Shown here: in pieces, positions 4,466 through 39,800 of the stretch | Layout: each line of letters begins with the position of its first letter | Position numbering within the stretch: position 1 is the first letter of the stretch | Assembly: GCA_022494885.1 (NCBI GenBank) | Contig: JAGVSM010004586.1 | Location: 496,001-560,000, forward strand | Length of the DNA: 64,000 nucleotides | From: Micrasema longulum | Lineage: Eukaryota; Arthropoda; Insecta; Trichoptera; Brachycentridae | Reading direction: 5' to 3' | The notes under the pieces: model-generated | The model's database searches: none | The model's input: the letters and a program-made list of their open reading frames with translations, nothing else | What the model was told of the DNA's origin: nothing | Made by a program: the position numbers and the translations under genes

Positions 4466-5704
4466 GGTTTGTTGTAATTTTTAAATTACTCCGCCCTTAT
4501 AGAATTCACGTATGTTCCAGTCAGTGAGTTCTACTGATTGATAAGTTGACTTCCCGGAAACCGGAAATCTATGACAACACTCTTTCATTGGTTGATTACA
4601 AAGAACCTGTCACGTAGTTAGAAGAATTTCTTTTTTTTAAACTATTTTTTTTCATACATTTTCGAGAAGTTCGCCGTACAATAAATTAAATGCTCTAATT
4701 TTTACGGCTCTAAGAAGAAAAAAAAACATTTGATTTCCCGTAGCACTGAACTTCCTCGTTATTTTACTCATTAATTTTTGTGAGGATAAGCCAAAAAAAC
4801 AATCACTAAACAGAGTTAAATGATTCTGTAAATACAGAAGAAAATGCTTAATCAGCATGAAAAATTAAAAATGTTATTACCCACTTTGCAATATTCAATA
4901 TTTCGTGGTTCGTATAGGTTATAGGCAAACATCTCTGTTGAAAAATATCTAATGTATAAAGTTATTATGTATATATTTTATGGGCCCAAAAATTTTTTAA
5001 TTGATAATATTTCATTGATCCTAAACATTCCAAATTTTCCTTCTTTTAAAATACATGCACTGTCTTGGATTCAAACAAAAGATATTAACTCTTTTTTTCT
5101 ATGATATATTTTGTTGCCCTTTAATAATAAGGAATATTTTAATGTTTATTATACTTTTTATTTCCTTTTTTAATTACGATAAAAAAAAGCACCTTCTCAT
5201 CTTTTGCAAAATATTTTCTTTCCTATTTCTTATATTACACAAAAATATTGTTTACTATAGGAGCGAAAAACTTAAAATTAAAAATTTCTTATATACCCTC
5301 GAACAGGCCATGTCTTTGTGGGATTTTTTTGTGTACCATTTTTACTGTTAATGTATTTGATTGTTATGTAATTTTCCTTTATTTTTTTAATTCTCTGTTT
5401 TACCTCGAATGTATATTGTAAAAAAATTCAAAAAAAATATAATTAAAAAAATATATATATATAATGCAAAAATAAAACACAATTTTCAATCGTATTTTTT
5501 AATAATTATATTTTACCCAAAAATGTTAAATTCATAAAAATAAATAATTAACAACAAATTAAACAGTTAAAATACATGGTACTTAGAAAAAAAAATATTT
5601 TGAGTTTATTGAAATAGATCGGATTGAAATGACGATTCGAAGGATTTTTTAAGTGTTAGCTAAGATAAAATGTATAAAGTGCTATTTTTATTAAAGTCAT
5701 CTTA
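4466..5704. other. AT-rich stretch, no gene seen
   Basis: Low complexity. ACAGGCCATG...GTGGGATTT near 5,306 resembles 58,246, perhaps a shared repeat end. Confidence 0.45.
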
Positions 5705-9300: not shown

Positions 9301-12300
9301 TTTACATTTTTTCATACTTGCAACTTGAGTTATGTAAGACTATAAATAAGATAAATATTCTGACCCTACCTACATCATTCCTTTTTCAAATTGTTGTTGG
9401 TTCTATCGTCTTGTGAACAAGTCACATTGTGAAAAATGTTATCCCAATAAATCCTTATCATATCCTGTGTCAGAATACTTCTGAGAAAGTGCAATTAGTG
9501 TTACATAAACATCCTAAAATATGCATCTCATTATCATCTAGACGAAACCGAAATAAACGTAAGAATTTAAAAGTGAGTAAACAATTCATATACAGTCTAA
9601 AAAATTCTAATTCCCGTTGTGATCAGTGTACTATGCCTGAAATGTATCGAGCTGACTAAACAAAAATAAATGGTATTCATATACTCGCACAGTACTTACG
9701 TATATTAAAAAAATCGATTTAGATATTTATTGCAATGATAACAATTATTTTTATATTAAAAATATCGTAATACGTTTTAGTTAGGTAATAACTAGTTTTT
9801 TAAATTTATATTGTATAACTAGCTAAAATAAATACATTCCATAATATATAAGACTTCGAGTTAAGCCATGCCATTTTTTTATCTTTATGCACTTGGTTAG
9901 TGACGTGAGATCTACGAAAAGCTGAAAAATCCAAATAACTCAAAGTTCTGGGACTAATCGCCTAATCTACATATTTTGGAAATAAGGGCATAAAAACCAT
10001 AGTTGCTTTTATAAGATTTGGGGCCTAACTTATAAACCTGGTGTAATGTTATGCTTTGGCATGCCTAGGTATAAATTTATAGCCCTTGATAATTAGAGCT
10101 TTTTTTTACTTCTAGTAACGCAGTTGGGAACATAAAACGAGGTTTATTGCGTCAGAGATGGAACATTTCTTTTATTATTAAGTATTTTTAAGGTCCTTTT
10201 TGTTCCTGAATGTTTTTTTTATTGAAGGCAGATTAAGAGATTGCTCTTTTTCAACATGAAATATCAAATAAAATTATATATTTTATTCAGTTTTATGAAA
10301 ATTTACAAAATGTGTAGCAAAAACAAAAGGTATTACAACCCGCGTTATCAATTTCGAAAAAAAACCAACCATTATTTAACGTTAAACTTTTTTTACGTAT
10401 TTTTTTGTCCAACTGATTTTTAGGGTCTTATAAACCTGGTAAAAATTACGCCAAGGCATAGTAGTCGAATAAGGATCGTAAACCAGTCCTTATTTTACCA
10501 CTATAATAATGATGGTACTTCCATCCTTATTCTACCACTATGCCTGGGTGTATTTTTACCAAGTGTATTTTATGAGTAGGCCCTTGGAGTTTAACTTTGT
10601 CATAATAATATTATTTCAGTTAAAAGGTTCAATAGTACAGATACAATTTTACCATATAAATAAATAAACGTATTTTATTTTCATTAACGATATTGAAATA
10701 GCATATCATGTTTTAAAAAATAATAATTAAAAAATAAATTTCTAAAAAAAAAAAACTCTGTAAATAAATCGAAACAAAATAAAAATTAATTTTAATTGAA
10801 AAGCTAGATATGGATTTTTTTATGATCCCTTCCCAACTTACGCGAATAATCTCTTAGTAATAAATTTTAATTACAAATATTCTATAGAAACTCGTGCGCA
10901 ACTTATTTTGTAAAAGAAATATATACAATAACACTCTCATGTATTTTTTTCTATTCTGTGTAATTCTGTAATTTAAGATATACGCTTGTGGGATTGTTTT
11001 GATAACTATCTAAAAAAATATTATTTTTCAAATATTTATTTTTGTTGAATTACCTAATGAACTAAAATAATTTTAAAAAATAAAAGACAAATAAATGGTT
11101 AAGAAAGAAAAAGGAATGAGTTTTTACAGAAAAAAATCTTATTGGCGGTCGTTCCTTTTTACATTTATTAATTTATTATTCTATTTCAGAATATAATGCG
11201 AATAGGGCACTGCATTGGTACACCAAACGCTGCGTATCTTGAATAATTTTGTTATATGAAAGAATGAGGATCCATATAATTCTTATAAAATATGCCGGCG
11301 ATCGTAGAATAAATTACAAACAAATTTACTTTGACATAAACGTAAGTCTATATCGAGGCTTTACTGTAAGAATGCATTAAGTCATTAAAACAAGTATTAT
11401 TTCTCCCACAATTTTTTTTTTAAGCTTTAAAAGAGTAATCTTTTTTCTAGGTAAAGCATAAAATTTGAAATCAACATCTTGAATCTTTATTTTAAAACAT
11501 TTGAAATTTATAAAGACTGTTGACTTAATGCATTCTGTCAGTATAGCCTCGATATATTCGCAACTGATTTATGTTAGAAAACGTGTTTGAATAATTAAAA
11601 TCGTGACATTGGATCGAGAACTTATTAACGAGGCGAGAATAATTACGCCAAAAGAAAGCGGGCGCTTTAAGTAATTTGTTTTTAATACATTTCAATTGTG
11701 AAAGTTGTCAAAATTAAATATAATCAAACCCTTTAGAAAAAAATGGTATCCAACTCACTACTAAAAGCTTCAAAAAGTTTTTTGATAAAATTAGCTTATA
11801 ATGTATATTTGCGTTTGTACGCTTAACGCAACCTTGTAGTTTTAGCGATGTTTATCAAAATGAAAACTGTGGTCATAATAAAATTTAAAAAAAACATCAA
11901 TCCTAATGTTTAAACCAAACATTGATTTAAGTCTACTAATTATTTTTTGTTTTAATTTAATGGACGCAAATCATTGAACGATTTAATTATTAAGACACAA
12001 AGGTAAACAAAGTAAGACTCCCAGCTTAGTAAGTTTAAAAATTGTGACCATTCGCGCTTTAACTAACTAATGGATGTTGAATTAAATTTTAAACTTTATA
12101 TACGAGTACCTATATACTAAATATAATGATACATCAAATGACGCTATTGTGTATTGCAAGGTCATCATTATAAATTGCAATCAATGTCAGTCCAGGCAAA
12201 ACCAGTATCACGTATGATTAAAAAATGAAAAATTACTTGACTAATGGTGAAGCTGCAGTGATGACGTGCCGATCTGTCAGGATGGCCCCTCCTGCCGCGG

Positions 12301-15300
12301 GTCGAGACTTGATCATGACGATAACCTGCCAGTTATATTCGTAGGGAGGAGACAAATCTCCCCCGAGCAATCTTCCCTTTCTTCTGTTTCCATCAGATGT
12401 TTCCACGGGGGTTTTGACCGGCAGTTTCTGAGTAACTTTAGAGACAACTTGTCCTTTTGGCTTGGAGTCAGAGACCGCTGACCCGATTGGCTTTTTTTCG
12501 CCAGCTTTCGAAACTCCGTCGATTTTTTCAGTCGATTTCAAATATAATTTCTGATTGATGTCTGCGAGATTGGCACGATCTATGGTCTCGTTTTGTTGTT
12601 TTTTACCGCCGTCGGCATTTGCGGTGTCATTACCTTCTGGGGAATAGGAATCCGCGGTCAGAATCGTCTCTACTGGAGCGCTGTCATCATCAACCTCGCA
12701 AATTGTATTTTTGACTGAGTACTTTTTGTCGTCGACCTGAATTATTCTAGTTCCGTTGGTTTTGCACTTTTCGCCATTTTTATCTACGAAATCGTCGCTC
12801 TGGGAGTCCGTCGCGTTTCTTAGTCCTTCTCCAGATGACGAGACGTCATCAAGATTCGTGTCACTTTTCAAACTGTTAATATTAGTTTTTGCTTCATCTC
12901 CGAAAAAATTGGTTCGGCTCGAAGAAGTTGGCGCTACCCCGCACCCTAAAAATTCGAAAAATATTGAAGTAGAAGAAAAACGGACATCTCAAATTTAAAA
13001 AATTACTTTAAAATTCAACTTACTACAAAAACATCTGGTCTGAACCAGTAATGTCTCGATAAGTCCACGACCTCTCGGAGAAACCTAAAACATACATAAG
13101 TTTATAAAATCTCGTCAGCACTAACGTCAGCATTGATTTGCTTTTGAATATTTGATATAGGTAATGAATACTCATCGCAAAAATAACGTGAAAGAAAACA
13201 TTTTTTCAGTTTTTTAAAAACATATTTATGTCCCAAAAAAATTCATTTGCAAATTTCTATTATATAATACATAATATTATGTATTTATTAACAATTCATA
13301 AATTGTATTTGGTACTTATAAATTATTGATTATCAACACTCAAGGTTGTATCTAGTTAGCAAACTAGACACAATCCAGAGAAATCTATTTCCTAAATCAT
13401 GTTTCAGATAAAGAAATTGTAATTTTTGTTAATAAATCGTGATTATGATTATAATTAATTAATATATTTTAGATTCTCATATGAAGCTTCAGATCCTGCA
13501 TGTTTTTTTTAAATCCACATACAAAACAGTATACTTACACAAAACCCGTCAAGAAAAGTAAAAACAAATGTGTATTGATATTTAGATTAATGTATCAAGT
13601 TATGAAAAATAACAGAACGGCCCATTTCGCACCTTGGTAAAAATCCAAACCGCACGATAAAGTAACATAGAGCGGATCGATATTTTTCGTATTAAAATTG
13701 TTTTTATTAATTAATTGACTAGTAATCGCAATAATCAGTACCCCGTGAGGCCGAATAGTCTCCATTTGATTTCATTTCGCAGGATTTTTACCAGAATAGC
13801 AGCTGAATAAATTTGAAATAATTACAAAGCAATAAATTAAATGTCAATCCACCCTAATTTGACCGTGCCGTGTGGATTTGGAAGAAACGTGTGAAATGGG
13901 CCAACAAATGAGCATTGTAACGATGATTAACGTATCTATAACTCAGCTTTAATATTGTAATTGTGTTATATTTTATCATTATTACTAAGACTGGTCATCT
14001 TACCTTCATGTAAGAAAAAATAATTAATAAAAGCTGCGATTGGTGTACCAATACAGTGCCTTATGTACCATTAGGTGCAGAAAGCGAAATGATGATGATG
14101 AATTAAATACAAATAAATTATATATTAAAACCTGCTTTTAAGGATATTACTGCGATGCCAGTCCTGAACTTAAATCACAAGTAATATTTGTAAATATTTT
14201 TAAACGATTTTTTCAAACTTTCAATAAAATTTCTTGGTTTTTGAAAAAAAAAATATTGGCCAACGAGCATTTTCGCATAAATGGGCATCTTAAGGACTGT
14301 TAAGGTTTGATATGTTTATCAAAATCTGTGAGCATGGAGTTTATTTCAAAAATATCTACAATAAACATAAATTTAAATTTAAAATATTATATTTTTAATT
14401 GAATCGGCATTCACTTCGTAATACTTCATTAAAAATTATTATGAAAATACTCTGTTCAATGTTTTTGCTTCTCTATAAGCGCCGAGTTTTATTATTTTAT
14501 TCAAAAGTTAGACAAACTAATTTTACGTTTATGAAAACAGAGATGGAGGAGTTTTTAGAATATGTAATTAAACATTAATTACTTATATGAAAAAAAATTT
14601 TTTTTTATTTTTTGTTGACCAGTGAGTTTTGAAATTCTAAAACATTAATTTATTTACTCGTATGTTTAAGAACAATGCAATTATAATGAGATGCACTGTA
14701 TGAGATTGCTTCGGGAATAAATACATAACATCGCTGCGGTTTTCATTATTATCCATATACGTATATGTGTATATCATCACTGTCATATGTATTATTATAT
14801 TACATTTCTACATTCCATTTTTCGACATGTATAAATTATTATTATTTATATTTTTCTATTATTATTTTGTATATTGTTTTGATTATTTTGCATATTGTTT
14901 TGATTACCTGTATATTGTTTTAATATGTAAATAAATATTTTTGATGTATATATTGAAGAGTCCCGACTTAACACGGAATTTTCTAACAAGTCGGGACATA
15001 AAAAACAGATAATTGTGTCTATGTAAAATTGTGTATTTTGTGCATTAAATAAATAAATAAATGATTATAATTATTTCGTACTCCTTTACATTACAAAGTA
15101 TAAATGTACAGAGAAAACACTCCCTTCACATACCCAAAAACCGTTTTTTTAAGTAACGAAGATCTTCCTATCGGTTTTGCTTTTACTAACAACCCCTTTT
15201 TTGAAAAAAAAATGTTTTTATTTAAAAAACCGACATTAAAATACATTTGTCGCTTCTTCTTTCACTACCTATTTTACTGTTAGTTTAGTCTTTTGTCGTA

Positions 15301-20922: not shown

Positions 20923-21281
20923 AATTTGAAAAGACTCGACTTTTGTAAAAAAAATGTTTAAAGATATGAGCAAACGGATTTCGGGTTGTGGAGAGAGTGC
21001 TTTCTCCGAAACATTCTGTGTATGTTACAAGGAAAATCCACAATGATCATAAATAAGAACACTCTTAACTATTCGTGAATTTATTATTTTGTTTTATTTA
21101 TTTCCTCATTAGTAAAATTTCAAGCCGTAAAAATGTCATTTTTTATTTTAATTGCCTTCGTAAATATTTTTACCAACATGAGTTTTTTATTTACTGAGAA
21201 TGTGCTTAAACTGTAATTAGATAAATTTATTTATTTATTTAGTATTTCACAGTTTTAATATGTACAGAGTTTATTTGTTTC

Positions 21282-21324
21282 AGGTCCCGACTAGCTAGGA
21301 AATTCCTGTGTTTAGGAAGGACCT
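21282..21324 (-). other. 3' UTR stem-loop of the non-LTR element
   Basis: AGGTCC/GGACCT closes a loop containing TAGTCGGGAC and AGGAAATTCCT; the element's (TAAA)n tail lies about 45 nt further on the minus strand. The related element at 14,960 has a comparable stem-loop before a similar tail. Confidence 0.5.
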
Positions 21325-21847
21325 TATTTTATTCATGTGTTTTTTTTATTTTTAATTTCATTAAATGATGCTTAATAAATTCAAAGAATAATAATAACAT
21401 TATTAAAAATCAATATAAATTTAAATTAGAAAACATGCAAGTAATAATAATAAAATTGAATCATAAAAATAGATTAGAAAATATGCCATTAATAGTAAAT
21501 AAATGAGACACAATTATTATAAATTATAAAACATACCGATAATAATAAAAATTGAACCACAAATACACATTATAATATATAAAATGAGTAATTAAGAAAT
21601 TAAACAAAAATATAAATTGGAAAACATACCGATAATAATAAAAATTGAAGAACAAAAATAAATTACAGAATATACCATTTATAATTTTTTTTTAAAATAA
21701 GATAGGTACGGTTAAAATACTAGTTTTAAAAAGAAAAAAAAAACATATGTAAATGAATAAACATAAAAAGTAAAAATGAAATATACATAAAAACAATAAG
21801 AGATTTTTTTCAATTAAAAGCAACACAATTTTTAGTCATGAAAATAA

Positions 21848-24776
21848 TTACAGGATATAAAAAGGTCTACCCCTAATCCACTTGCTCACCTTCTTCTTAT
21901 AAACATTGTAACTGACAGACGTCTTTATGTCAGGGTCCAACATGTTAAAAAACCTAGGGCCCAATACTGCAAAATGCCTCTGAAAAAAGGCAGTTCTACT
22001 TAGAGGTACCCCAAAGTTTATGCTCATTGCATATCTTGTTTTAATATTTTGTTGTGTTCTATTTTTTATTGAAGACCAGAAATTTGTAAGGACTTCTCTA
22101 ACATAAAGTTGTCTGATAGTTAGTAAATTTGTTGTTTCAAATAGAGTATGAGAGGGGTAAGTAGATGGCAGTTTTAGCATTATTTTCAATATTGTTTTTT
22201 GGAGAATGACCAATGGATTAAGTATGACCTCCGAACAACCACCCCATCCAATTATTCCATATGACGCAACCGACTGGAACAGTGCAAAATATACCGATTT
22301 AACTGCTCCGTAGTCTAAAACACCTCTCAATGAGTAGAACACATGTATCAGTTTTCGGAGTTTTTTGACAGTCATAGAAATGTGAGATTCCCATTTAAGA
22401 TGGCTGTCAATCATAATTCCCAAATATTTAATTTCATTAACTCTTTTCAAGGGAGAACAGGTACACGGCACTTTATCTTGTCCAGGAATTTGGTTTAAAC
22501 CACAAGTATGAAGCATAACATTGAAAGATGTGACTGGTTGGGTAGCTCCACTGAGGCTAAATGTTATGTAGTTTGTTTTATCAATATTGAGGGAAAGTAA
22601 ATTTATGTCTAACCACTTTCTCACCATTTCCATTCCTTCTGTGGCCTTACAAAAAACATCGTTCCATGAGCATCCATCGAAAACGATTACGGTATCATCT
22701 GCGAAAGAAATAATGGCTTTGCCAAGTTCCATGTTACAGAGATTATTAATGTATACAAGAAATAGTATTGGACCCAGTACACTACCTTGGGGCACACCGT
22801 TTATGACTGGTTGATTTTTGCTTCTAGTTTCTTTTCCCGTCTCATCCGTTATTTTTGTAGTTTGAGTTCTCCCTGTCAGATAATTTTCAAACCATTTTAA
22901 TGCAGTTCCATTGACTCCTATTTCTGATAGTCTTCTACACAGTATCGAGTAGGACACAGTGTCAAAAGCCTTAGCTAGATCAAGGAACACAGCTATAGTT
23001 TTACTTTTTCTATCTAAACATTCGGACAGTATATTTGATAAATTTGCTATCGCATCAGATGTGCTCTTTTTTTTGTCTAAAACCGTACTGATTATTTGAT
23101 AAAATGCTATTGCTCTCTAGGAAGAAATTAAACCTTGTTTTAACTATCAATTCTATGATTTTAGAAACTACACTAAGAAGAGAAATTGGTCGGTAATTGT
23201 TAACTGAGCACTTATCTTTGGATTTAAAAATAGGAATAACAATAGAGTTTTTCAGACAATTAGGGAAAATTCCCTCCTTAAAGCTGCAGTTTATAATATG
23301 TGTTAGAGGAAAAGCGATTATGTTTTTTAGGTGCTTAACACATTTAGTAGTAATATTGTCAGTACCTGAAGAGCAACAATTCTTTAGCGAGGAAATAACT
23401 GCATTAAGCTCAACATGATTAGTGGGTGAAATATTAAATGGAGGGTACGGTATATTGGAGCCGTTTATTCGCGAAGCCAATTCTTGTTCGGAGTTTTTCA
23501 GTCTATTTTTGATAATATTAGCTAAATTAGATCCTATGTTGGCGAAAAATTTGTTAAAGTGGTTGGCGATTTGGTCAGGGTTTTTCAGTACGTTATACGG
23601 TTTTCCATCTATGTTAATATCGTTTATAGAATTTCTTATCCCAGATGTATAAGAAATTTCTTTTATGATTTGCCATATTCTTTTTCCGTCACCTTTAGCA
23701 TCGAGAATCTTACTTCTATAGTATTCCTCTTTAACATTTTTTAAGGTTTTGTTGCATCTATTTCTATATTTCTTATAGTAATGATTTAAAATTCGATCAG
23801 TAGGATTATTAGTACAATATCGATGAAGTTTGTCTCTTTTTCTAACACATTTGATAAGTCCTGTTGTTATCCAAGGTTTGATTTTACGTTTCTTTGACGA
23901 TGTTCTCCGTGTGATGCTTGTAGCATTTGTTATATGTGCATCGAGTATATTAACAAAGTGTTTGCAAGAAATATTTGGGTCGTTGTTTGAATAGACTGGA
24001 GACCAGGTCTCTTCAGTTATTTTTTGGAATAATAAATTGTAATCAATATTTTTGCTATTATATTGTCGCTCAGGTGGAGGTGGTGTCGAGGTTGCTACAC
24101 TGATAATGTTAGCATAGTGATCGGTTATGCTACATTTGTAAACAACTGCCCTAGTGTGTAGTAAACTTTTTAAGAAAACGTGGTCAATGCAGCTACTAGT
24201 TGTTTCCGTTACCCTTGTGGGTACCATAATTGCCGGATAGAATCCATATGTACCAAGAAGGTTCAGGTATTCATTGGCTTGTGGGTGCATATTATTGATT
24301 ATATTGATGTTTGTATCTCCTAAGATAAAAAAGTTTTTTATGTTCTTGTTAAGTTCCAAATATTCGTTTAACGATGATAAGAAAGACGTTATGTTTGTGT
24401 TGTGAGGAGAACGGTAGATAGCTAGAATAGTCATCATATTATTAATTTCAATTTCAATACAATTGGAATGTGGAAAGCATACTTCCTTACTTGTAAAAGC
24501 TAGTTTACTTTTTACAAATATAACGACACCGTCATTTTGTAGTTTATTATTACAAGAATGACATTGGTTGTAGTTTCCAATAGTTTTAGGAATATAATAT
24601 TCATTTATCCAGCATTCTGACAGTATGATAACATCTATATCACAATTTAGTTCAGTTAAAACAACCATTAGGGCATCAAAATTTTTGTTTATGCTTCTAA
24701 TATTCATAGAAAATACCTTGATGGAAGAACCATTATTTAAAAATTGTTTAGCAACATTTGATTTTATGGTTTCCAT
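21848..24776 (-). pseudogene. ORF2 of the non-LTR element: endonuclease plus reverse transcriptase, one frameshift
   Basis: N-terminal apurinic-like endonuclease: MNIRSINKNFDAL, IILSECWINE, FILGDTNINI, CIDHVFLKS and SITDHYANI. Then the RT: VNNYRPISLLSVVSKI, YGFRQ, FLDLAKAFDTV, INGVPQGSVLGPILFL and the catalytic ISFADDTV. Thumb and C-terminal region end in WIRGRPFYIL. The frame breaks after YGFRQ at a run of eight A (about 23,075), where seven would keep it; intact length would be about 975 aa. All visible catalytic residues are present. Confidence 0.93.
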
Positions 24777-24816
24777 CAGAGGTATAGGGTCAAATTCATC
24801 AAACGTACTATGTGGT

Positions 24817-26601
24817 TCACTCGCGCCCTAGAGAAAACATTAATACAATGAGTGATACAAAAATAATTGACGGATTTACAGAATTTACAAGATAATTCAG
24901 CAGAACAGTTTGAATAAGATTATTTTCAGTCGTTAACTCTTTTGAGAAAAGCTTTATATAAAAGATTATAGAGTGAATCGTAGCACTTGCAGCATCCAAA
25001 AAAATAGTAAACATTGTCAAAGTCATTATAGAGATTACTGGGAGTGATACTATGTAGATCATTTTATACGGTAGCAGAGTCATAGAAATTTTACAGCATA
25101 TACTTAAGATACATACAGTGAGAATTTTACAATTATTTAATAGAAAGTACAGATACATATATTTAAAAATGTTGATAAGAGTCAGTATATAGTATAAAAG
25201 AGCAAAATAAAAATCATTGTAATTATTACATTTATGACAAGAAAGTATAAATGCAATATTTAAATCCTGGTATAAGAGGTAAATTGTGGAGTCATTTAAA
25301 TTAACCTTAAAATAAACCGTAGTTATAAATATCATGATATACAGATATAAAAAGTGAGCTGACAAAGAAAAATAGAACATGCTATAAAAACAATATAAAA
25401 ACTTTGGCTTAATAAATAGAAGCACAAAAATAAAGTTAAATGTATATGAAACTAAGATGATATTAAAATAAATCATTTTTAAAATTGTTAAAAAGTAAGG
25501 ATACAAAAAATATAGGCATTCTTCACAAAAGTAGAGATTCAATGTAAATAATATAAAGAGAAAAGTAAAATCGTTATAAACATAGGTATAAAGGGTGACA
25601 AATTTTACAGTATTTAGATTCATTTGGTTAGAGTCAAAAGTGTTCAAGGTTATAGTAGTATATAAATATGTAAAATTCAGTGTAGTCTCATTCAGTGCTG
25701 TGTAATCTTTTGCCACACAATACGAAAATGACAGTATAAAGAGGACGTAAACAAAAATAAAACGGTAGCAATAAAGTAAAAAACAATAATAAGAACATAC
25801 TTTAGCATTGTAATAACGTAATGAAATAATATAGTTTAATTTTTCATGACTTGTATATATATGACGTAATAGAATTATACAATGAAAAAATAAGAGAACA
25901 ATAAAAAAGTAGCATGAGATAGAAAAATAGTTTAAAACTATTTCTCGTATCTGAGGTAGAAATATAGTATATTTACAGATCAGTAGCATAGTAATCCAAT
26001 TTGATTCAAATATAGAGGAACGTAATTCCATATCTATAATATAATTTGAATCTAAGAAATTGAATTTATAAGTATATAAATAGTATAAATAATAAGGCCA
26101 TTTTTTTAAAACTTGGAAGAAAGATAGAATTTCGTATGAACATATTTGATTAAAACTAAAAGTAGTTTTTTTATTCTGATTCTCTGGCATATAAGATTTT
26201 AACACAGCAAAATAATAATACGGCACGAGAAAGAAAAGAAAAATAAGTATATAAATAATGAATACAATAAATCTATGGTTTAAAATAATTTGTTTTTGAA
26301 TTTCTATGAATTGACTATGACAGTTTGTCGTTCTATGAATATATTTGACAACAATACTATTTCTGTGTGCATTGCTCCGGTTGAATTGAAAGTGATGTAA
26401 TGTTGTTATATCATTATATAATAAAAACAATCTCTGAGATCTCTTTGGGATTGTGTGTCTCGTGAATATAGAACTTGCTATGATACACTGAAAGTTCTTT
26501 AAATATTGAATAGCACAAGTAATCTGCTCAATTTTATCTAAAATACTATAACGTATTATGAGACTTATATCAAGCTTAACAATTAGCAGATGTACATGCA
26601 T
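24817..26601 (-). CDS. Long hydrophobic ORF between ORF1 and ORF2, unknown function
   Basis: Uninterrupted frame of about 594 codons from the first ATG (26,601), open upstream to about 26,655. It starts about 230 nt after the ORF1 stop and ends 40 nt before the ORF2 ATG, in the same sense. The protein is dominated by Phe, Tyr, Ile and Leu, with perhaps ten or more membrane-length stretches, for example FIVFIIYILIFLFFLVP and CYFFIVLLFFHCIILL. Only the first 100 residues are mainly polar. I recognise no family: no transporter, odorant or gustatory receptor signature. The sense strand is T-rich here, which favours hydrophobic codons, but cannot explain the absence of stops. Whether it is translated is unknown. 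Confidence 0.6.
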   Translation of the reverse strand: MHVHLLIVKLDISLIIRYSILDKIEQITCAIQYLKNFQCIIASSIFTRHTIPKRSQRLFLLYNDITTLHHFQFNRSNAHRNSIVVKYIHRTTNCHSQFIEIQKQIILNHRFIVFIIYILIFLFFLVPYYYFAVLKSYMPENQNKKTTFSFNQICSYEILSFFQVLKKWPYYLYYLYTYKFNFLDSNYIIDMELRSSIFESNWITMLLICKYTIFLPQIREIVLNYFSISCYFFIVLLFFHCIILLRHIYTSHEKLNYIISLRYYNAKVCSYYCFLLYCYRFIFVYVLFILSFSYCVAKDYTALNETTLNFTYLYTTITLNTFDSNQMNLNTVKFVTLYTYVYNDFTFLFILFTLNLYFCEECLYFLYPYFLTILKMIYFNIILVSYTFNFIFVLLFIKPKFLYCFYSMFYFSLSAHFLYLYIMIFITTVYFKVNLNDSTIYLLYQDLNIAFILSCHKCNNYNDFYFALLYYILTLINIFKYMYLYFLLNNCKILTVCILSICCKISMTLLPYKMIYIVSLPVISIMTLTMFTIFLDAASATIHSIIFYIKLFSKELTTENNLIQTVLLNYLVNSVNPSIIFVSLIVLMFSLGRE

Positions 26602-26673
26602 CAAGATTAAAGGTAAAATATTATGACGTTCTGCATTTTGTCTAGTAGTCGGATCTAATTATTTTTAAATACT

Positions 26674-26925
26674 TTACTCTAAGCTGAGTGGTTGATATGG
26701 ATGAGAATTATGAGTAAGGTTTGTAATGGTCGACATTTCTTTAATTATTTTTGTAATTTTATAAACAGAGACGCACAAAGTATATTGAGTGGAGCAATGA
26801 ATCATATTACAGTGCGGAGATTTTATATATTTATAGCTTACGTAGATCTGTCTCGCTTTTAACCCGAAAACATCCTTCACCTTCTGCTTTACGAGTAAAA
26901 ATATTTCCGTTTTTGGTCCATACAT
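26674..26925 (-). other. Short overlapping frame across the ORF1 end
   Basis: 84-codon frame overlapping the ORF1 C-terminus and running toward the hydrophobic ORF, ending HPYQPLSLE. The hydrophobic frame opens 20 nt later with a polar stretch (DPTTRQNAERHN). Could be a leader separated by a frameshift, or chance. Confidence 0.2.
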
Positions 26926-27692
26926 ACTTTATTCCTTTGGTTTTAGCTAACTGTTTGGTTTTAGCCAGCAGAAACTTGCACCTTCTTGTCAATTGTTCCG
27001 TAATAAAAATGTTTGTATGTTTTATGTCCTTTAAGCCGATAAGGGTTGAATTTATACACTGTTTTTTATTTTTTATGCACTCCCTATTGTATGTTTTGAT
27101 TTTTTGCAGGAAAGAGTCTTTACCTTCTTTGGTACGCATTGTTAAAACAATGGAGCTAGGAGTATTTTGTGTTGGAAGCCTCCTCGAGCGTTCTATGGAT
27201 GCGATTTCTTGGCCCGGTTCCCAGCTTATTATCGTAGCTATATTATTGATGATTTTCGACAGATAACTATTTGTTTCCTGGGGATTATCAGGGCATCCTC
27301 GGATTTCAATATTATTTTGTATTTTTATTTTTTCTTCTTCGTCTAATTTTCCTTCCAAATAATCCACTCTCTTTATCAATTCTAGTTGATTTTGATGATT
27401 TTTTTTTATTCTCGTTTTCTTTTCCTTCCAGTTCTGTCAGGCGTTTGCTAAGCGTTTCATTCTGTTCACTGACAAATTTGATGGCCTCCAGAATAGTTGC
27501 GTATTGGTTGGTGACCTGACTTATCTGCTGATGGATTATTTCAAAACTTTTACTTAGCCGATTGACCTCTGTCTGAAGGGCAGATAGCGCGTTTGCCAAC
27601 TCCAAGTTAGCCGAGAAGGGTTGGGCGGCTGCAGCTGGTGATGCTGGAAAAGGTTCAGTAGTCTTTAATTTTGAGTCCTTTTTTGGGGCCAT
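26831..27692 (-). pseudogene. ORF1 of the non-LTR element, single frameshift
   Basis: Starts MAPKKDSKLK, followed by a Pro/Ala stretch and a long heptad-like coiled coil (residues about 30-105). The second half, in another frame, has IEIRGCPDN, ASIERSRRLP and ends VKSETDLRKL, typical of an ORF1 C-terminal nucleic-acid-binding domain. No CCHC knuckles visible. The frame changes in a run of nine A at about 27,405; a run of eight would restore it (about 286 aa). Confidence 0.85.
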
Positions 27693-28127
27693 CTTTAAAG
27701 TAGGTAGGTTTTTTGGGAATCTTTAATCACTCTTTTCTTCAGCACAGTTCAGTATAAGAATAAACAAAAACTATTTTAAATATTTAAAATCACTTCTTTG
27801 CACTATTTAGATAAAAATTATGTTTATTTTAACACTTAAATTTCTAAAATTCTTGATTTGTTTAGAGGAGTAAATTTTTGACGTTTGTAATTTTGACAGA
27901 TGACCTAATGCTTTCGTCATATGCTTTCGTCATTTCGTCATTGTCATATCATATTTCGTATATCGCGGATGGACAATGCACAGCATAGACAATAGCAACA
28001 AGAAATAAATAGATTTCAATGATTATTGAAATTGAATAATTATTTATTCAATTTCATTTGCAAATACAAACAATATTTTAATGACGTGTGCTAGACACAA
28101 TATTTAAAGTATTTCCGAATTTGAGCT

Positions 28128-33800: not shown

Positions 33801-36800
33801 ATAATAAGATGACTCATATATTTAGTTGACTTATTTAAATTAATTTATAAAAAACAACAATATTTTGAATACGTCCTAATGTTTGTAGACCTGGAGAATT
33901 ACCATAATTTTTTAAACTTACTTTAAAATAAAACCAGTATAAAACGATGCATGTTTTGAAAAATAATATTCACACGATAAAAGTAAATGTGTTAAATTTA
34001 CATACAAACATTCCAAGGTTTCTTCCTTACCTGATATCGCGTTGTCCATTGAGACATGTATTGAATCTGGGCTGAATGTAGGACCACGCGCCTTGATTCT
34101 TGTGTTCCTCCTGTCCCCACACTAGCTTCGCATTCGGATACTTCTCGGACTGCATCTTCACCAGGTCATATGGGAAGGGGCTGATCTGTTCCATCCTCAC
34201 AATGGCAATCTGGTCAGTCAGTTTCTTGTCTTCGCGCGCCTTGCGGAAGTCGTAGTACACTTTGCCAGTGCAGAATATCACTTTCTTAACATTACTCGCA
34301 TTCTCTGAGCACGGGCCATCATCGGGAATTATTCTAGAATACAAACATAACAATAAAGTTAAAACGCATACCTATAAAGTTGATTGAATTTAATACTTTT
34401 GTATTTTAGTCAGGTCATTGGGCTTTGTAATTGTCTACCTCACTGGTTCTTTGCGGGAATTCATTTATTTGTTAAATGCAGACATATAGATACTAGATCA
34501 ATAATGAGTCAGTGACATTAATAAATAATTATTGTTATTTATGTTCGTTCTAACGGATTAACCAATCAACATTCAAAATCAATTCAACATAAATTCTTGG
34601 TTAAAGTTATGAACTTTTTATTGCTCAGTAGTTTTATCTGCTGTCTTCGGGCGCATGGTATACAAATATAACTACATATTTCTGAAAAACTCAAAATGTA
34701 CCGATACGGAAAATTTTATTCTGATGCTCTGTCTAAAAAAAATAACAAAATCGGTTCAGTTTTGAGGTGCGGAAAACGGGACAGCAAAATGTCGATTTTG
34801 TCTATTCTAACAAAAGGTCTAACATGCAGTTTTCTTTTTCGCACAGTATCGGGGAGGCATCTGCGAGACAGTGAAAACAATTTTCGAATAACTAAATATC
34901 AAAATTTTCTGTCCTCACAATTTATGTAAACCGAAACACAAAAATAATAATGCATACGTACATATCTAATTTGGACTAAATGCAATAAATTATATCAAAC
35001 TTTTGATTGTGTTCATTTAATCTATATACGAGTATGTACTCAAATCTAGCAATAGCAAATCATTGTCGGGTTCAGCTCGTACTATATAAAACATGATGCA
35101 TTTTGATAAAAGTTATTGCAATCAAAATACAGTAAAATCTCGTTTATCTGTTCCTCAATTTTATCCCATTTTTTCCCATACATTCTGATTTAAATATTCC
35201 CCCTGATTTTCATTTTTCATAACTCCGGTTTTACATTGAAAATGTTTCATAACTCATTTGATTTGTCAGAGGCCGAGCTACGCGCCACTGTGTTTGCTCA
35301 AAATATACGATACAATCAGGGTAAATAAAAAAAAAGCATAAATTATTGTGTCAAACTAAATTCACAGTAGGTGCAGTGCAATTGACCTTTTTGTTTAAGT
35401 GTCTGGTTTGGACATCCTACTAAATTGTGACAGGCAATTGACGCATGTTTAGAAAAAATAAAGTCTTTACATCAATAAATTACGATGCAGAAAATTAAAA
35501 AATGTGGCAATAGAAATATTATTCAAAGTTATAAACATAATGTGAAAAGAAGATGGTTTAAACAGTTTTCATAAAAGTGCAAAACAGTTTTATCGCGATG
35601 TACACGACAGTTGAAATACTGTGGTGCCATAGTAAAAAAAAATGATACAATATAAAAAAAAATTCCCAACATTTATGGGAAAAATCATTGTATGTATTTT
35701 AAGCAAATAAAAAAAAATATTTTCGCATTTTTAAATTTATTAAATAAGTACATAAAATTATTTAAACATGTTGGAATAAAAAATTATTAAATCAAAAAAA
35801 TAACACATTACAATATTAACAAATTACAACAGGGATGGAGAATACCTTAAATAAGGGAATATGGAAGTCAAGGCATTTACAGGGCTTATGACCTGTCATT
35901 GGCTGGTTTAAGTGGCCACTTTACACACTGTGTAACATTCACCATTTTGCCTATGTTTGAACATCCATATTACTTAAATTCTTCCATTTGTTGATTTTAG
36001 TAAAGTTAAAGAGCTGAAACCTTTATTGTTGTGAAAAGATTCATCTGACTGAATTATTTCACATACTAGGCAACGCCTGAAAACAATTTTTCAATTTTTT
36101 AAACTTCTTCTTGGACCAGTTGGTTTCATTACAATATTTGAGTTTGTCCAAATGTTCGTAGACAAAAGACTGGATGGAAGCATTACAATATTGATTGCAA
36201 AAAATACAAAATATTTCTAATGAAATCATTGGAAATGGGTAAAAATATTCATAATCCTCAATTATGACGGTTTTCAGAATTTTTCTAGCAGTATATTTAG
36301 ATTATAGTCTAGTAAAATGATATTATTTTTATGTAATTTCATTTATTACATACATTTTGAATTTCCTCACTTTAGCGTTTTCCTCAGTTTTTTTTTTTTT
36401 CGTTGCGCCCTTGAAAAATGCAAAAAGGGGGTTTTACTGTACTAGCAAAATGTTAAGATATTTAATTAAAATAAAAAATATATTACCTGAGGAAATTCGT
36501 TCCTTCCTTCATGAGGTCGAAGGATGAGCGAGCTTCGGGGTGACGCAGTAAGGACTTGGGAGTCATAAGGATGAGCGGCTTACGGAACGGAAGAGCAATT
36601 TGCCGTCTCAGGATGTGAAAGTAATTAGCTGGGGTCGTGCAATTGGCCACAATCCAGTTGGCATCGTGAAGTTGTCTCACTAAAAAACAGAAAACAATTT
36701 ATTTTTTTTTTAAATATGTAAGTATATATTTATATATTACAGATAACACTCTATCTAGATTGGTATCTGAAGCGTAAAATTGATCACCTTGCTTTGTGTG

Positions 36801-39800
36801 AATATATTTGATTGTCATTCATGCATGTTTAGTAATTATACATTATACATATTTCAGGATGCACGAACCTGCAAAATCCTCTCCTAGTGAATGCAACCCG
36901 AATGTTTGCAGCGTAAGTTAAGTTCTCATTAGACTAAGAACGTATTACAATGTCACTTTGGTATGTCAACTAATGGATGTATACAAACCTTCAAACTCTT
37001 CACTTTCAGGTGGGTAGTAGTCGGGATCATCTGATGACATTTGTAAGAACCTTTCCAGGCGTGCGGATGAATGTTCGGGACCCTATAAACAAAATGAATA
37101 ATAAAAGGAGTGATTTATTCTTAAAACTCTTACAATACAAATAAAAACAGATATTATAGACTTTCTATAATGATTTTATTTAGAGTGTTTTTGGTTTGTC
37201 ATTTTCAGGGAATTTACAAAATGTTATTGATAGATTGCACATATTTGTAATTCTCATGTAGGACAATACAGTGTAGCAGAATTTAGCTATGCGACTGACC
37301 ATTCCTTCCAGTCCATGTGGCTGGAGCATAACGAGGCCAGACTGCCGAACCCACTTGGCCTGGCCGCTGGAGATGAACTGATCGATGATGCACTGTGCCG
37401 TGTTATTGAAGTCACCAAACTGGGCTTCCCAACATACCAGGGCATTAGGATTTGTCATGGAGTAGCCCAACTCAAAACCGAGGACACCTGTCGATGAAAT
37501 AATGTTATTGATTAATTTATTTTTTATATTTTCAGTATTCACATTGTAACAGTATTTGTTACAACAAAGTAACAGATGTCCCTTGTTACATGAAACACAC
37601 ATATCCACCAATACTCTTACACCTGAGTTTTAAATTAAATCATTTTAACCTTTCAGTCATTTAAAAAAATAAAAAACTACCATTTAAGGATGCCTACTGC
37701 AACCCAACAGTGTAGGCATCCTTAGCAGGTAGCGACTCTATCCGGAAAGAGAAACTAATTGACCTTTTATGGACCCAGATTACGGCTTTCATCTCAGTAT
37801 ACCGAGATCCCATTATACCGGGATAGTGCATGGTTTTCTGATCTCGCTCAGAGCAAGATTGCGTGTACGGGATCCCTCAGGATTTACGCGATCCGGGTTC
37901 CAAATGCTTAATTAGGTTGATCACAAACTTTTAGCTGTCAACTGTCAAATATATTTTAACAAGATATTTTTCTTCACTAGTTTCAATTAGGCATGGGTAA
38001 CTCAATTTTGAACTGATTTAAAAAGACGATTCGAACCCATCGAGTTGTTGAGCTGCAACCGAAATTTTGAATATGCGTCTTACAGCTCACAGCAGTTCAT
38101 TGCGAGTTTCGTTCGAATCGTACGTGTACGCTATGCTTTATAGAAAATTAAATATCAGGTCAGCTGACTCAGCACATTCGCGGTGATTCGGTGAACCATA
38201 CATTTATTTGAGCCAAACTGCGACCTGTATCGTTTGGCTCAATGTGAGCTGATCTGCGAGCCAGTTCAAAACTCCAGCTCAATTACTTGAGCTGCGAGCT
38301 GACCTGCAGCTCAAAAAATAATCTCGCGTTACCCATGCCTAGTTTCAATGCCTCTAATTAATTGAATAAATATTACAATGTCTGAACACTAAATACGAAT
38401 TATTTAAGTTCTGCACTGAAACACGTGGAATCCTGCTTATACCGGGATCCCGCAGGACTGAAAATCTTTGATCCTGCAGATACCGAGATCGCAAGTCAGC
38501 TGCAGGATTGGAAGCCCTAATCCAGATATTATTTTGACATAAACTTTACAATATGGTTGCACATTTATTTGATAAATAAATGACGATGTGCAACATAATA
38601 TTTTAAATGAAATAAAGAGGTACTGAATTTTTACCATATTCAGAGAGTGAACTGTTACAGACAGTGTAGGGTCCTTGGTCAGGGTACAGGTGACACAGGG
38701 GCCGGTACGTTGCCTTGTCTACATTCTGATGATGCAAGACGTGATGTCTGGAATAAATTATTTTATGAAGTAAACGTGATCAATAATGTTTTGTGAATGT
38801 CAATATATTTTTACAGAAGTATTGGATTAGATATAAAATATGGTGAATGTTACAGTGTTTAAAGTGATTACTGGAATCAGTTTATAGGTCACAAGTCATG
38901 TGAATGCCTAGACTTGCATATTCTCTTCTCAAATACTTTATCTGTCTTTGTTATAAAATAAGAGCGCTTAATGAATAAATTATGCGCAATCAAAAATTTA
39001 TCAAATTAGAAAAAATTTATCAAAATTAATTTTGTTGTAATTTTTTAAAGAAAACACACTAAGAGGGTAAACGTAGTATAAAAATCATGATTTTATTGAC
39101 TGTTTTTTTTTCTCAGCTTTATACATTTCGCATTTCATTTTGTGGTAATATACATTTAATCTCTGTAACCAAATGAATCACAATACACTTTACTGTTTAT
39201 CATTTTATTTTGAAGTCAGCTTCCTTCTGTTAATTTTCATATCAGTGGTTGGTTATCTCGGTTAATAGTTATATGCCTGACTTTCATTGTCCCGAAGTCA
39301 GTAAACAAAGTATGTAACATAGACTTTTCATAACCTTTAAATATATAATGTATTTAGATCTAAATTTATTGCAACAGAGAGGGAAACACTTTTGAGAAGG
39401 GAATATGATAATCGAGGAATTTACAGGGCTTATGACCTCTCATTGGCTGGTTTAAGTGTCCACTTTGCACACTGTGTAACATTCACCATTCTAAAGTGGT
39501 CACTTAAACCAGCCGATGAGAGGTCATAAGCCCTGTAAATGCCTCGACTTCCATATCCCCTTCTCAAAAATGTTTCCCTCTCTGTTGCAATAAATTTAGA
39601 TGTAAATAACTAGGGAGGAAATCCAGCCTGTATACAAACATTTGGATATACTCAAAACGTTGTTGATATAATACATTATTTGTACTGCATTTGTAACTAA
39701 GTTAAACTGATAAGATTGCCATTACAATAAATAAAAAAATAAGAGCACAAATTGTTAGTCGAACATAGGCCTTCAATCATTTTACTGAATCTACATAATA

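Follow-up and report, generated by a model that had tools for sequence, protein, structure and literature searches.

A long stop-free frame in a Micrasema longulum non-LTR retrotransposon may mainly lead ribosomes from ORF1 onward to ORF2

A non-LTR retrotransposon of Micrasema longulum contains a third long open reading frame, here referred to as ORFX, between ORF1 and ORF2, and the main role of this frame may be to bring ribosomes that have translated ORF1 to ORF2. The element lies in the window, i.e., the whole stretch of 64,000 nt of DNA that was analyzed. The explanation that fits best, to which slightly less than an even chance is given, is that ORFX serves as a ribosome bridge, the frame of which is kept open by selection to couple ORF2 translation to that of ORF1, while the encoded peptide is largely free. 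Under such a mechanism, a long G-depleted RNA spacer would be kept between ORF1 and ORF2, and selection would keep one frame of this spacer free of stops in several lineages. Ribosomes would leave ORF1, enter the overlapping ORFX frame, cross the spacer, and reach the start of ORF2, where they would either restart at a stop-start overlap or use a +1 shift or a non-AUG start at the motif GGCGC. The ORFX peptide would mostly be a by-product, and hydrophobic since U-rich codons specify Phe, Leu, Ile, and Tyr. Ribosomes meeting an in-frame stop would be stranded, which would explain the absence of stops from spacers that do not resemble one another. Translation of ORFX, a dependence of ORF2 on it, and coupling by one of these routes are inferred from the sequences.

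The window element (Table 1) appears to be a Jockey-superfamily member, and its CR1/L2-like placement would follow from the type of ORF1 and the tail; the terms CR1/L2-like, signal-peptide-like, PHD-like, and splice-acceptor-like are used here as the analysts' readings, not as program calls. Its non-LTR nature is reflected by copies truncated at the 5' end (L012, L014, L015, and L036) and the lack of an LTR. ORF2 matches the Pfam families Exo_endo_phos (E 1.5e-7) and RVT_1 (E 5.9e-24), and the relative with a name among the matches listed was from Heliothis virescens (36%). Twenty loci with ORFX matches were fetched, i.e., ten of family A, to which the window copy belongs and which has (AAATA)n tails, and ten of family B, with poly-A-like tails; further partial ORFX matches were left unfetched. 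ORF1 is frameshifted in the window copy and forms one frame of 296 codons in L010, L011, L016, and others. ORF2 spans 992-997 codons in L009 (992 codons), L012, L014, and L018, and it carries one frameshift in the window copy, near 23055-23116. A single ORF2 frame is present in four of the ten family A copies that reach the whole of ORF2 (the window copy included and L013, at a contig end, excluded). The window copy, alone among the four compared, has an unrelated patch of ~62 nt in an otherwise ~99% identical sequence; the patch breaks the upstream frame of ORFX and displaces a signal-peptide-like stretch and upstream AUGs near the ORFX start.

Table 1. Coordinates of the window element and its parts, and of the stop-filled spacer in two related loci
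Feature	Position	Strand	Basis or remark
Family A non-LTR element copy	21225..27904	(-)	Alignment to copies L009, L010, L011
Element limits	5' end ~27904; (AAATA)n tail ending ~21225	(-)	
ORF1	26831..27722	(-)	Two overlapping frames in window copy; C-terminal Baculo_FP_2nd domain
ORFX	24817..26658	(-)	613 codons open in window copy; 705 in six others
ORF2 (endonuclease + reverse transcriptase)	21848..24827	(-)	First AUG 24776-24774
Patch of unrelated sequence, ~62 nt	26638..26699	(-)	Alignment with L009, L010, L022
ORFX/ORF2 frame overlap, 11 nt	24817..24827	(-)	GGCGC motif; TTTTCTCTAG just upstream, splice-acceptor-like by eye
7-codon mini-ORF 3' of ORFX stop	24776..24799	(-)	UGA overlaps first ORF2 AUG as UGAUG
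L030/L039 stop-filled G-poor spacer	L030:3853-4925; L039:2382-3454		

ORFX of the window copy has zero stops, each of the remaining five frames there contains 44-66, and 32.9 +/- 5.7 stops (minimum 15 in 400 trials) would be expected in its frame from a second-order Markov model of its own content. The original prediction of a frame of ~610 codons without a stop, where about thirty would be expected, is thereby confirmed, as is the prediction that this non-LTR element has a third long frame that would encode a hydrophobic product and is open in many copies and several lineages. The predicted spacing of 230 nt after ORF1 and 40 nt before ORF2 holds when taken to the first ATGs and fails for the open frames, since those of ORFX and ORF2 overlap. 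In the host assembly (584 Mb), at least 64 matches to ORFX were found. Further genomic copies, the collection of which had been proposed as a check, bore out the open frame, i.e., ten matches, including that of the window copy, span the whole of ORFX without a change of frame (residues 8-613 or 1-613) at 96-100% identity, and all ten are stop-free. Among the nine others, the six with the longest frame overlap the end of ORF1, and three, with 641-671 codons, are 5'-truncated. In the intact copy L010, the overlaps of ORFX are 98 nt with the end of ORF1 and 11 nt with the ORF2 frame. An eleventh family A copy spanning ORFX, L018, carries a 1-nt frameshift. The copies compared are young and all come from one host assembly, and L016 and L017, which have a common 5' flank, may be one insertion counted twice.

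Several other candidates were set aside. L048 has only the last ~200 nt of ORFX and ORF2 in common with family A and is probably 5'-truncated, and L090, an old copy that contains numerous stops, ceases to align near the ORFX end; both were excluded from the inference of selection. C2788, considered as an ORF2 with a different 5' end, seems to be just a 5'-truncated copy. In viral contigs, 75 pattern matches were checked for ORF2 relatives and none was confirmed, and 40 distant ORF2 loci (22-41% identity over the best segment) in microbial genome records were judged by their titles to be animal contamination and were not used.

Comparison of the two families places a breakpoint inside ORFX. L010 (family A) and L022 (family B) have ~2.15 kb in common at 98% identity, comprising the 5' end, ORF1, and ORFX up to ~codon 390. 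Beyond this point no nucleotide similarity between the two is detectable, the tails differ, and the ORF2 proteins of the families are ~36% identical, so two highly divergent 3' halves have become attached to the same 5' half. Likewise, L032 and L035 are 95% identical over 1154 nt and then diverge inside ORFX, the frame being 619 codons long in L032 and 451 in L035. These two pairs indicate recent exchange of 5' modules between deeply diverged ORF2 lineages at least twice, and L049 looks like a further join. That such a frame, over 600 codons long, is under selection for openness alone, as a sequence-agnostic bridge that is refilled with dissimilar sequence by recombination, is rated somewhat less probable than the bridge itself. 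In family B, ORFX is uninterrupted in four of ten copies (644-651 codons), has one in-frame stop in two, and is frameshifted in four; these many broken copies, together with the frameshifted family A copy L018, count against the bridge. The C-half of ORFX in L022 has an internal tandem duplication of ~175 nt (70%) at 4791-5135 (element-sense strand), a possible way for the frame to grow.

Open frames also precede ORF2 in other lineages. In the L032 family, all five matches that cover ORFX (residues 1-619 or 13-619) are stop-free, and numerous stops occur in C41, an older relative of L032 (39-51% over separate pieces). In L029, a hydrophobic frame of 250 codons precedes ORF2, and L034 and L046 have one of 104 codons, which in L034 is insignificant alone (3.8 stops expected, minimum 0 in 400). 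In L034 (3589-4926, + strand of the locus), this frame comes after the ORF1 UGA and in phase with ORF1, and readthrough of this UGA could lengthen ORF1 as far as the start of ORF2. Taken together, five stretches, namely, the C-halves of families A and B, L032, L035, and L029, are stop-free where 13-30 stops would be expected in each, with no mutual similarity detected. This recurrence in the same slot speaks against a recent neutral accident, i.e., a stop-free stretch that arose by chance and is merely young, as do the under-representation of stop-creating changes and the in-frame bias of indels relative to ORF2 described below. The near-identity of the family A copies and their omega of about 1 would fit such an accident, which is nevertheless considered very improbable.

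Not every relative has an open spacer. L030 and L039 have a spacer of 1073 nt with 33-43 and 34-36 stops per frame, respectively, and L043, L044, and L045, which were fetched in part, have the same sequence. L030 has an ORF2 open over 988 codons and is 5'-truncated inside ORF1, and L039 has an ORF1 open over 265 codons and an ORF2 frame of 610, so neither has both complete. This stop-filled spacer is evidence against the bridge, in that an open bridge is not always needed. In L031 and its copies L041 and L042, the gap between ORF1 and ORF2 is 48 nt; that L031 manages with so little is a further point against the bridge, which leaves unexplained both the length of ORFX and the keeping of a spacer of 1-2 kb.

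The sense-strand G content of the measured spacers is 0.09-0.11, and the L038 stretch, which takes in DNA beyond the part common to L033, has 0.166. Outside the element, none of 434 overlapping 1500-nt strand windows in the window has a G content of 0.105 or below. Since the stop-filled L030 spacer is equally G-poor, G-poverty seems to be a trait of the spacer and not of a protein. ATG-initiated frames in the L030 spacer are short, with a mean of 3.7 codons versus 8.3 expected (P 0.006, Markov), as they are in L039 (mean 3.0 codons, P 0.001), which is 98% identical to L030 and so not independent. Short ATG-frames as a second bridging strategy were rejected, as they are absent from the L033 spacer (P 0.75). 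Folding energies of the spacer RNA were weaker than those of ORF1 and ORF2 and no different from those of shuffled sequences.

Amino-acid change in ORFX looks neutral. With a mutation spectrum drawn from the copies, coding sites included, omega was 0.84 for the N-half of ORFX and 1.25 and 0.97 for its other parts, versus 0.43 for ORF1 and 0.59 and 0.54 for ORF2. Pooled omega was 0.96 (0.66-1.49) for ORFX, with 98 nonsynonymous and 34 synonymous changes and 99.1 nonsynonymous ones expected under neutrality, versus 0.53 (0.41-0.71; 130 and 83 changes) for ORF1 plus ORF2 (Fisher p 0.014). A dN/dS comparison of ORFX with ORF2 had been proposed earlier, and by the present counts the frame seems to be kept while the amino acids look neutral. 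Plain Nei-Gojobori counts, which leave out mutation bias, gave a pN/pS of 0.56 for the ORFX N-half, 0.79-0.81 for the C-halves, 0.28 for ORF1, and 0.41-0.43 for ORF2, and by this measure some constraint on the N-half is possible. Stop-creating changes in ORFX numbered 2 against 7.6 expected (p 0.019). Indels comprised four in-frame and four shifting events in ORFX versus 0 and 23 in ORF2 (Fisher p 0.002), where identical common indels of ORFX were counted once and the 23 of ORF2 per copy, these being partly one event and the single-base ones among them possibly assembly errors; halving them gives p 0.018. The substitution and indel counts cover 18 of 21 copies for ORF1, nine of ten for family B ORF2, and all fetched copies of the family for the remaining regions, with the first 63 nt of the window-copy ORFX N-half (the patch) left out. 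The scarcity of stop-creating changes, the in-frame indels, and an omega of about 1 together suggest that openness is kept while the residues of ORFX drift. Against this reading of ORFX as a bridge stand the omega interval, which reaches down to 0.66, and the lower omega and pN/pS of the N-half.

These N-half values are among the evidence for a different explanation, namely, that ORFX is a real, fast-evolving multi-span membrane protein, constrained for hydrophobicity and not for exact residues and possibly under diversifying selection, which might, for example, tether the RNP to the ER or to the nuclear envelope, or might antagonize the host. Such a protein, which is regarded as rather unlikely and is the foremost of the alternatives, would account for a frame open across copies and lineages and for the in-frame indels. 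It would also fit the 11 (Kyte-Doolittle) or 15 (octanol scale) hydropathy windows of L010 ORFX, the mildly high hydrophobic clustering (z ~2.1) in both proteins that contain the N-half, and the signal-peptide-like start seen by eye at M79 of intact copies, the last two of which also weigh against the bridge. Set against it, the hydrophobicity of ORFX is about that of composition-matched stop-free Markov sequences, in which predicted spans are similar or more numerous; across seven ORFX sequences (two being halves of two others), the span count gave z -1.97 to 0.23. This control takes composition as given and is blind to selection acting via composition. Moreover, T is about as common at third as at second codon positions, Gly makes up 3 of 705 residues in L010, the stop-filled spacer is just as G-poor, no similarity between families A and B was found in ORFX past their common 5' part, and searches of Pfam, PDB sequences, and a protein database yielded no relative of ORFX. 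A single-sequence AlphaFold model (mean pLDDT 41) was uninformative either way. Hydrophobicity as a sign of a multi-span membrane protein, as originally proposed, is therefore not upheld, given that composition-matched sequence is as hydrophobic and omega looks neutral.

The same database searches bear on the suggestion that ORFX was captured from a host or a virus. Retroelements are known to capture genes, and a long frame inside a mobile element would fit such an origin. The lack of relatives in those databases, the spacer-like composition and amino-acid make-up, and the dissimilar sequences that fill the slot in related elements all argue to the contrary, and capture, of a host gene in particular as first suggested, is scarcely credible. 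Of the three options raised by the original prediction, i.e., an element-encoded membrane protein, a captured host gene, and a spacer with unexplained stop avoidance, the last fits best, and the junctions between ORFX and ORF2 suggest why stops are avoided.

At these junctions, the ORFX stop overlaps or lies close to an ORF2 start directly in L032 (AUGA), L034 (AUG-n2-UAA), and L035 (AUG-n8-UAA). The proximity is reached through mini-ORFs in L031, where the second of two ends as AUG-n5-UGA, and in family A, where a mini-ORF 17 nt after the ORFX stop leads to the ORF2 AUG; it is absent in family B, L029, and L030. The family A junction is matched in 10 of 11 copies, L018 being the exception. 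Stop-start proximity is, by estimate, not rare in AT-rich DNA. A second feature is the motif GGCGC, which in family A, family B, and L029 occurs once in 1.6-2.2 kb and begins 7-10 nt before the end of the ORFX stop (10 nt in L010, 2.2 kb scanned). By chance, 0.05-0.09 occurrences per scan would be expected, and the ORFX C-parts of the three are dissimilar. Scanning of L032 and L035 gave no GGCGC. The family B junction with GGCGC is matched in five of nine copies tested. As GGCGC encodes Gly-Ala in the ORF2 frame, its conservation may be at the protein or the RNA level. In family B, the ORFX and ORF2 frames overlap by 107 nt. The first 110 codons of the family B ORF2 lack an AUG, which makes entry by a +1 shift or at a non-AUG codon likely. 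For the bridge, several of these details are unfavorable, namely, the 40 nt between the family A ORFX stop and the ORF2 AUG, the AUG-less start in family B, the missing GGCGC in L032 and L035, the family B copies in which the GGCGC junction was not matched, and the estimated commonness of stop-start proximity in AT-rich DNA.

The same geometry might instead reflect an ORFX-ORF2 polyprotein, in which a +1 shift at the ORFX stop gives the reverse transcriptase an ORFX-derived N-terminal extension. The +1 position of ORF2 in family A, family B, and L029, the frame overlaps in families A and B, the AUG-less family B ORF2, and the position of GGCGC are all in line with this. It is nevertheless improbable, as L032 is in the other frame with its AUGA overlap and as an ORF2 AUG that could be used is present in family A, L034, and L035; in addition, most of 120 listed ORF2 relatives start with Met ~40 residues before the endonuclease motif, a weak point because such a Met is a convention of gene prediction.

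The ribosome bridge would have partial parallels in known systems. In PMC5972666 and PMC2881922, termination-reinitiation is described for SART1 (UAAUG, Kojima 2005) and L1 (Alisch 2006); AUGA, UAAUG, and AUG-n-UGA (n = 2, 5, 8, or 14) are listed as sites for it (PMC5972666), and ORF2 translation of both elements depends on that of ORF1 (PMC2881922). The likeness lies in an ORF2 presumably reached by ribosomes from the preceding ORF, in the stop-start overlap at the ORF2 AUG in L032, L034, and L035, and in the UGAUG before ORF2 in family A. SART1 and L1 couple ORF1 directly to ORF2 (by an overlap, or a 63-nt spacer in L1), whereas here the two are separated by a third frame of 104-705 codons, the amino-acid sequence of which is apparently free. 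CR1/L2 elements with modular ORF1, as presented by Metcalfe and Casane 2014 (PMC4120745), have a similar endonuclease-reverse transcriptase ORF2 and FP-type C-terminal domain of ORF1, and the PHD-like Cys/His stretch of L034 ORF1 (by eye) and the microsatellite tail of family A also resemble them. ORF1-bearing 5' parts are exchanged between ORF2 lineages in both, although the breakpoint here is inside ORFX. The covered text of PMC4120745 has no occurrence of "transmembrane", "third ORF", or "between ORF1 and ORF2". Bdelloid LTR retrotransposons (PMC5408684) likewise have an extra ORF beside the standard set, but are another element class; captured ORFs are common to several retroelement types, according to the title of that paper. 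No description of such an ORFX in non-LTR elements was found in the literature searched.

If the bridge is true, a frame of coding length would have a nearly irrelevant product, and conservation of an open frame could not be taken as a sign of a functional protein; the ORF1-ORF2 coupling known from non-LTR elements would be extended to a relay via a giant intermediate frame. If ORFX instead acts through its protein, this would be a membrane protein new to non-LTR elements. The natural series within one genome, i.e., mini-ORFs, frames of 104, 250, 451, 619, 650, and 705 codons, and a stop-filled spacer, provides a test bed for the need of a bridge.

In the window as a whole, Rfam gave no match at the gathering threshold. 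Outside the element, a weak trypsin-like match at 12233-12985 (-) (E 0.003) was below the Pfam cut-off. Probable 2-oxoglutarate dehydrogenase exons (OxoGdeHyase_C and Transket_pyr) lie near the element at 34027-34371 and 37180-37629 (-).
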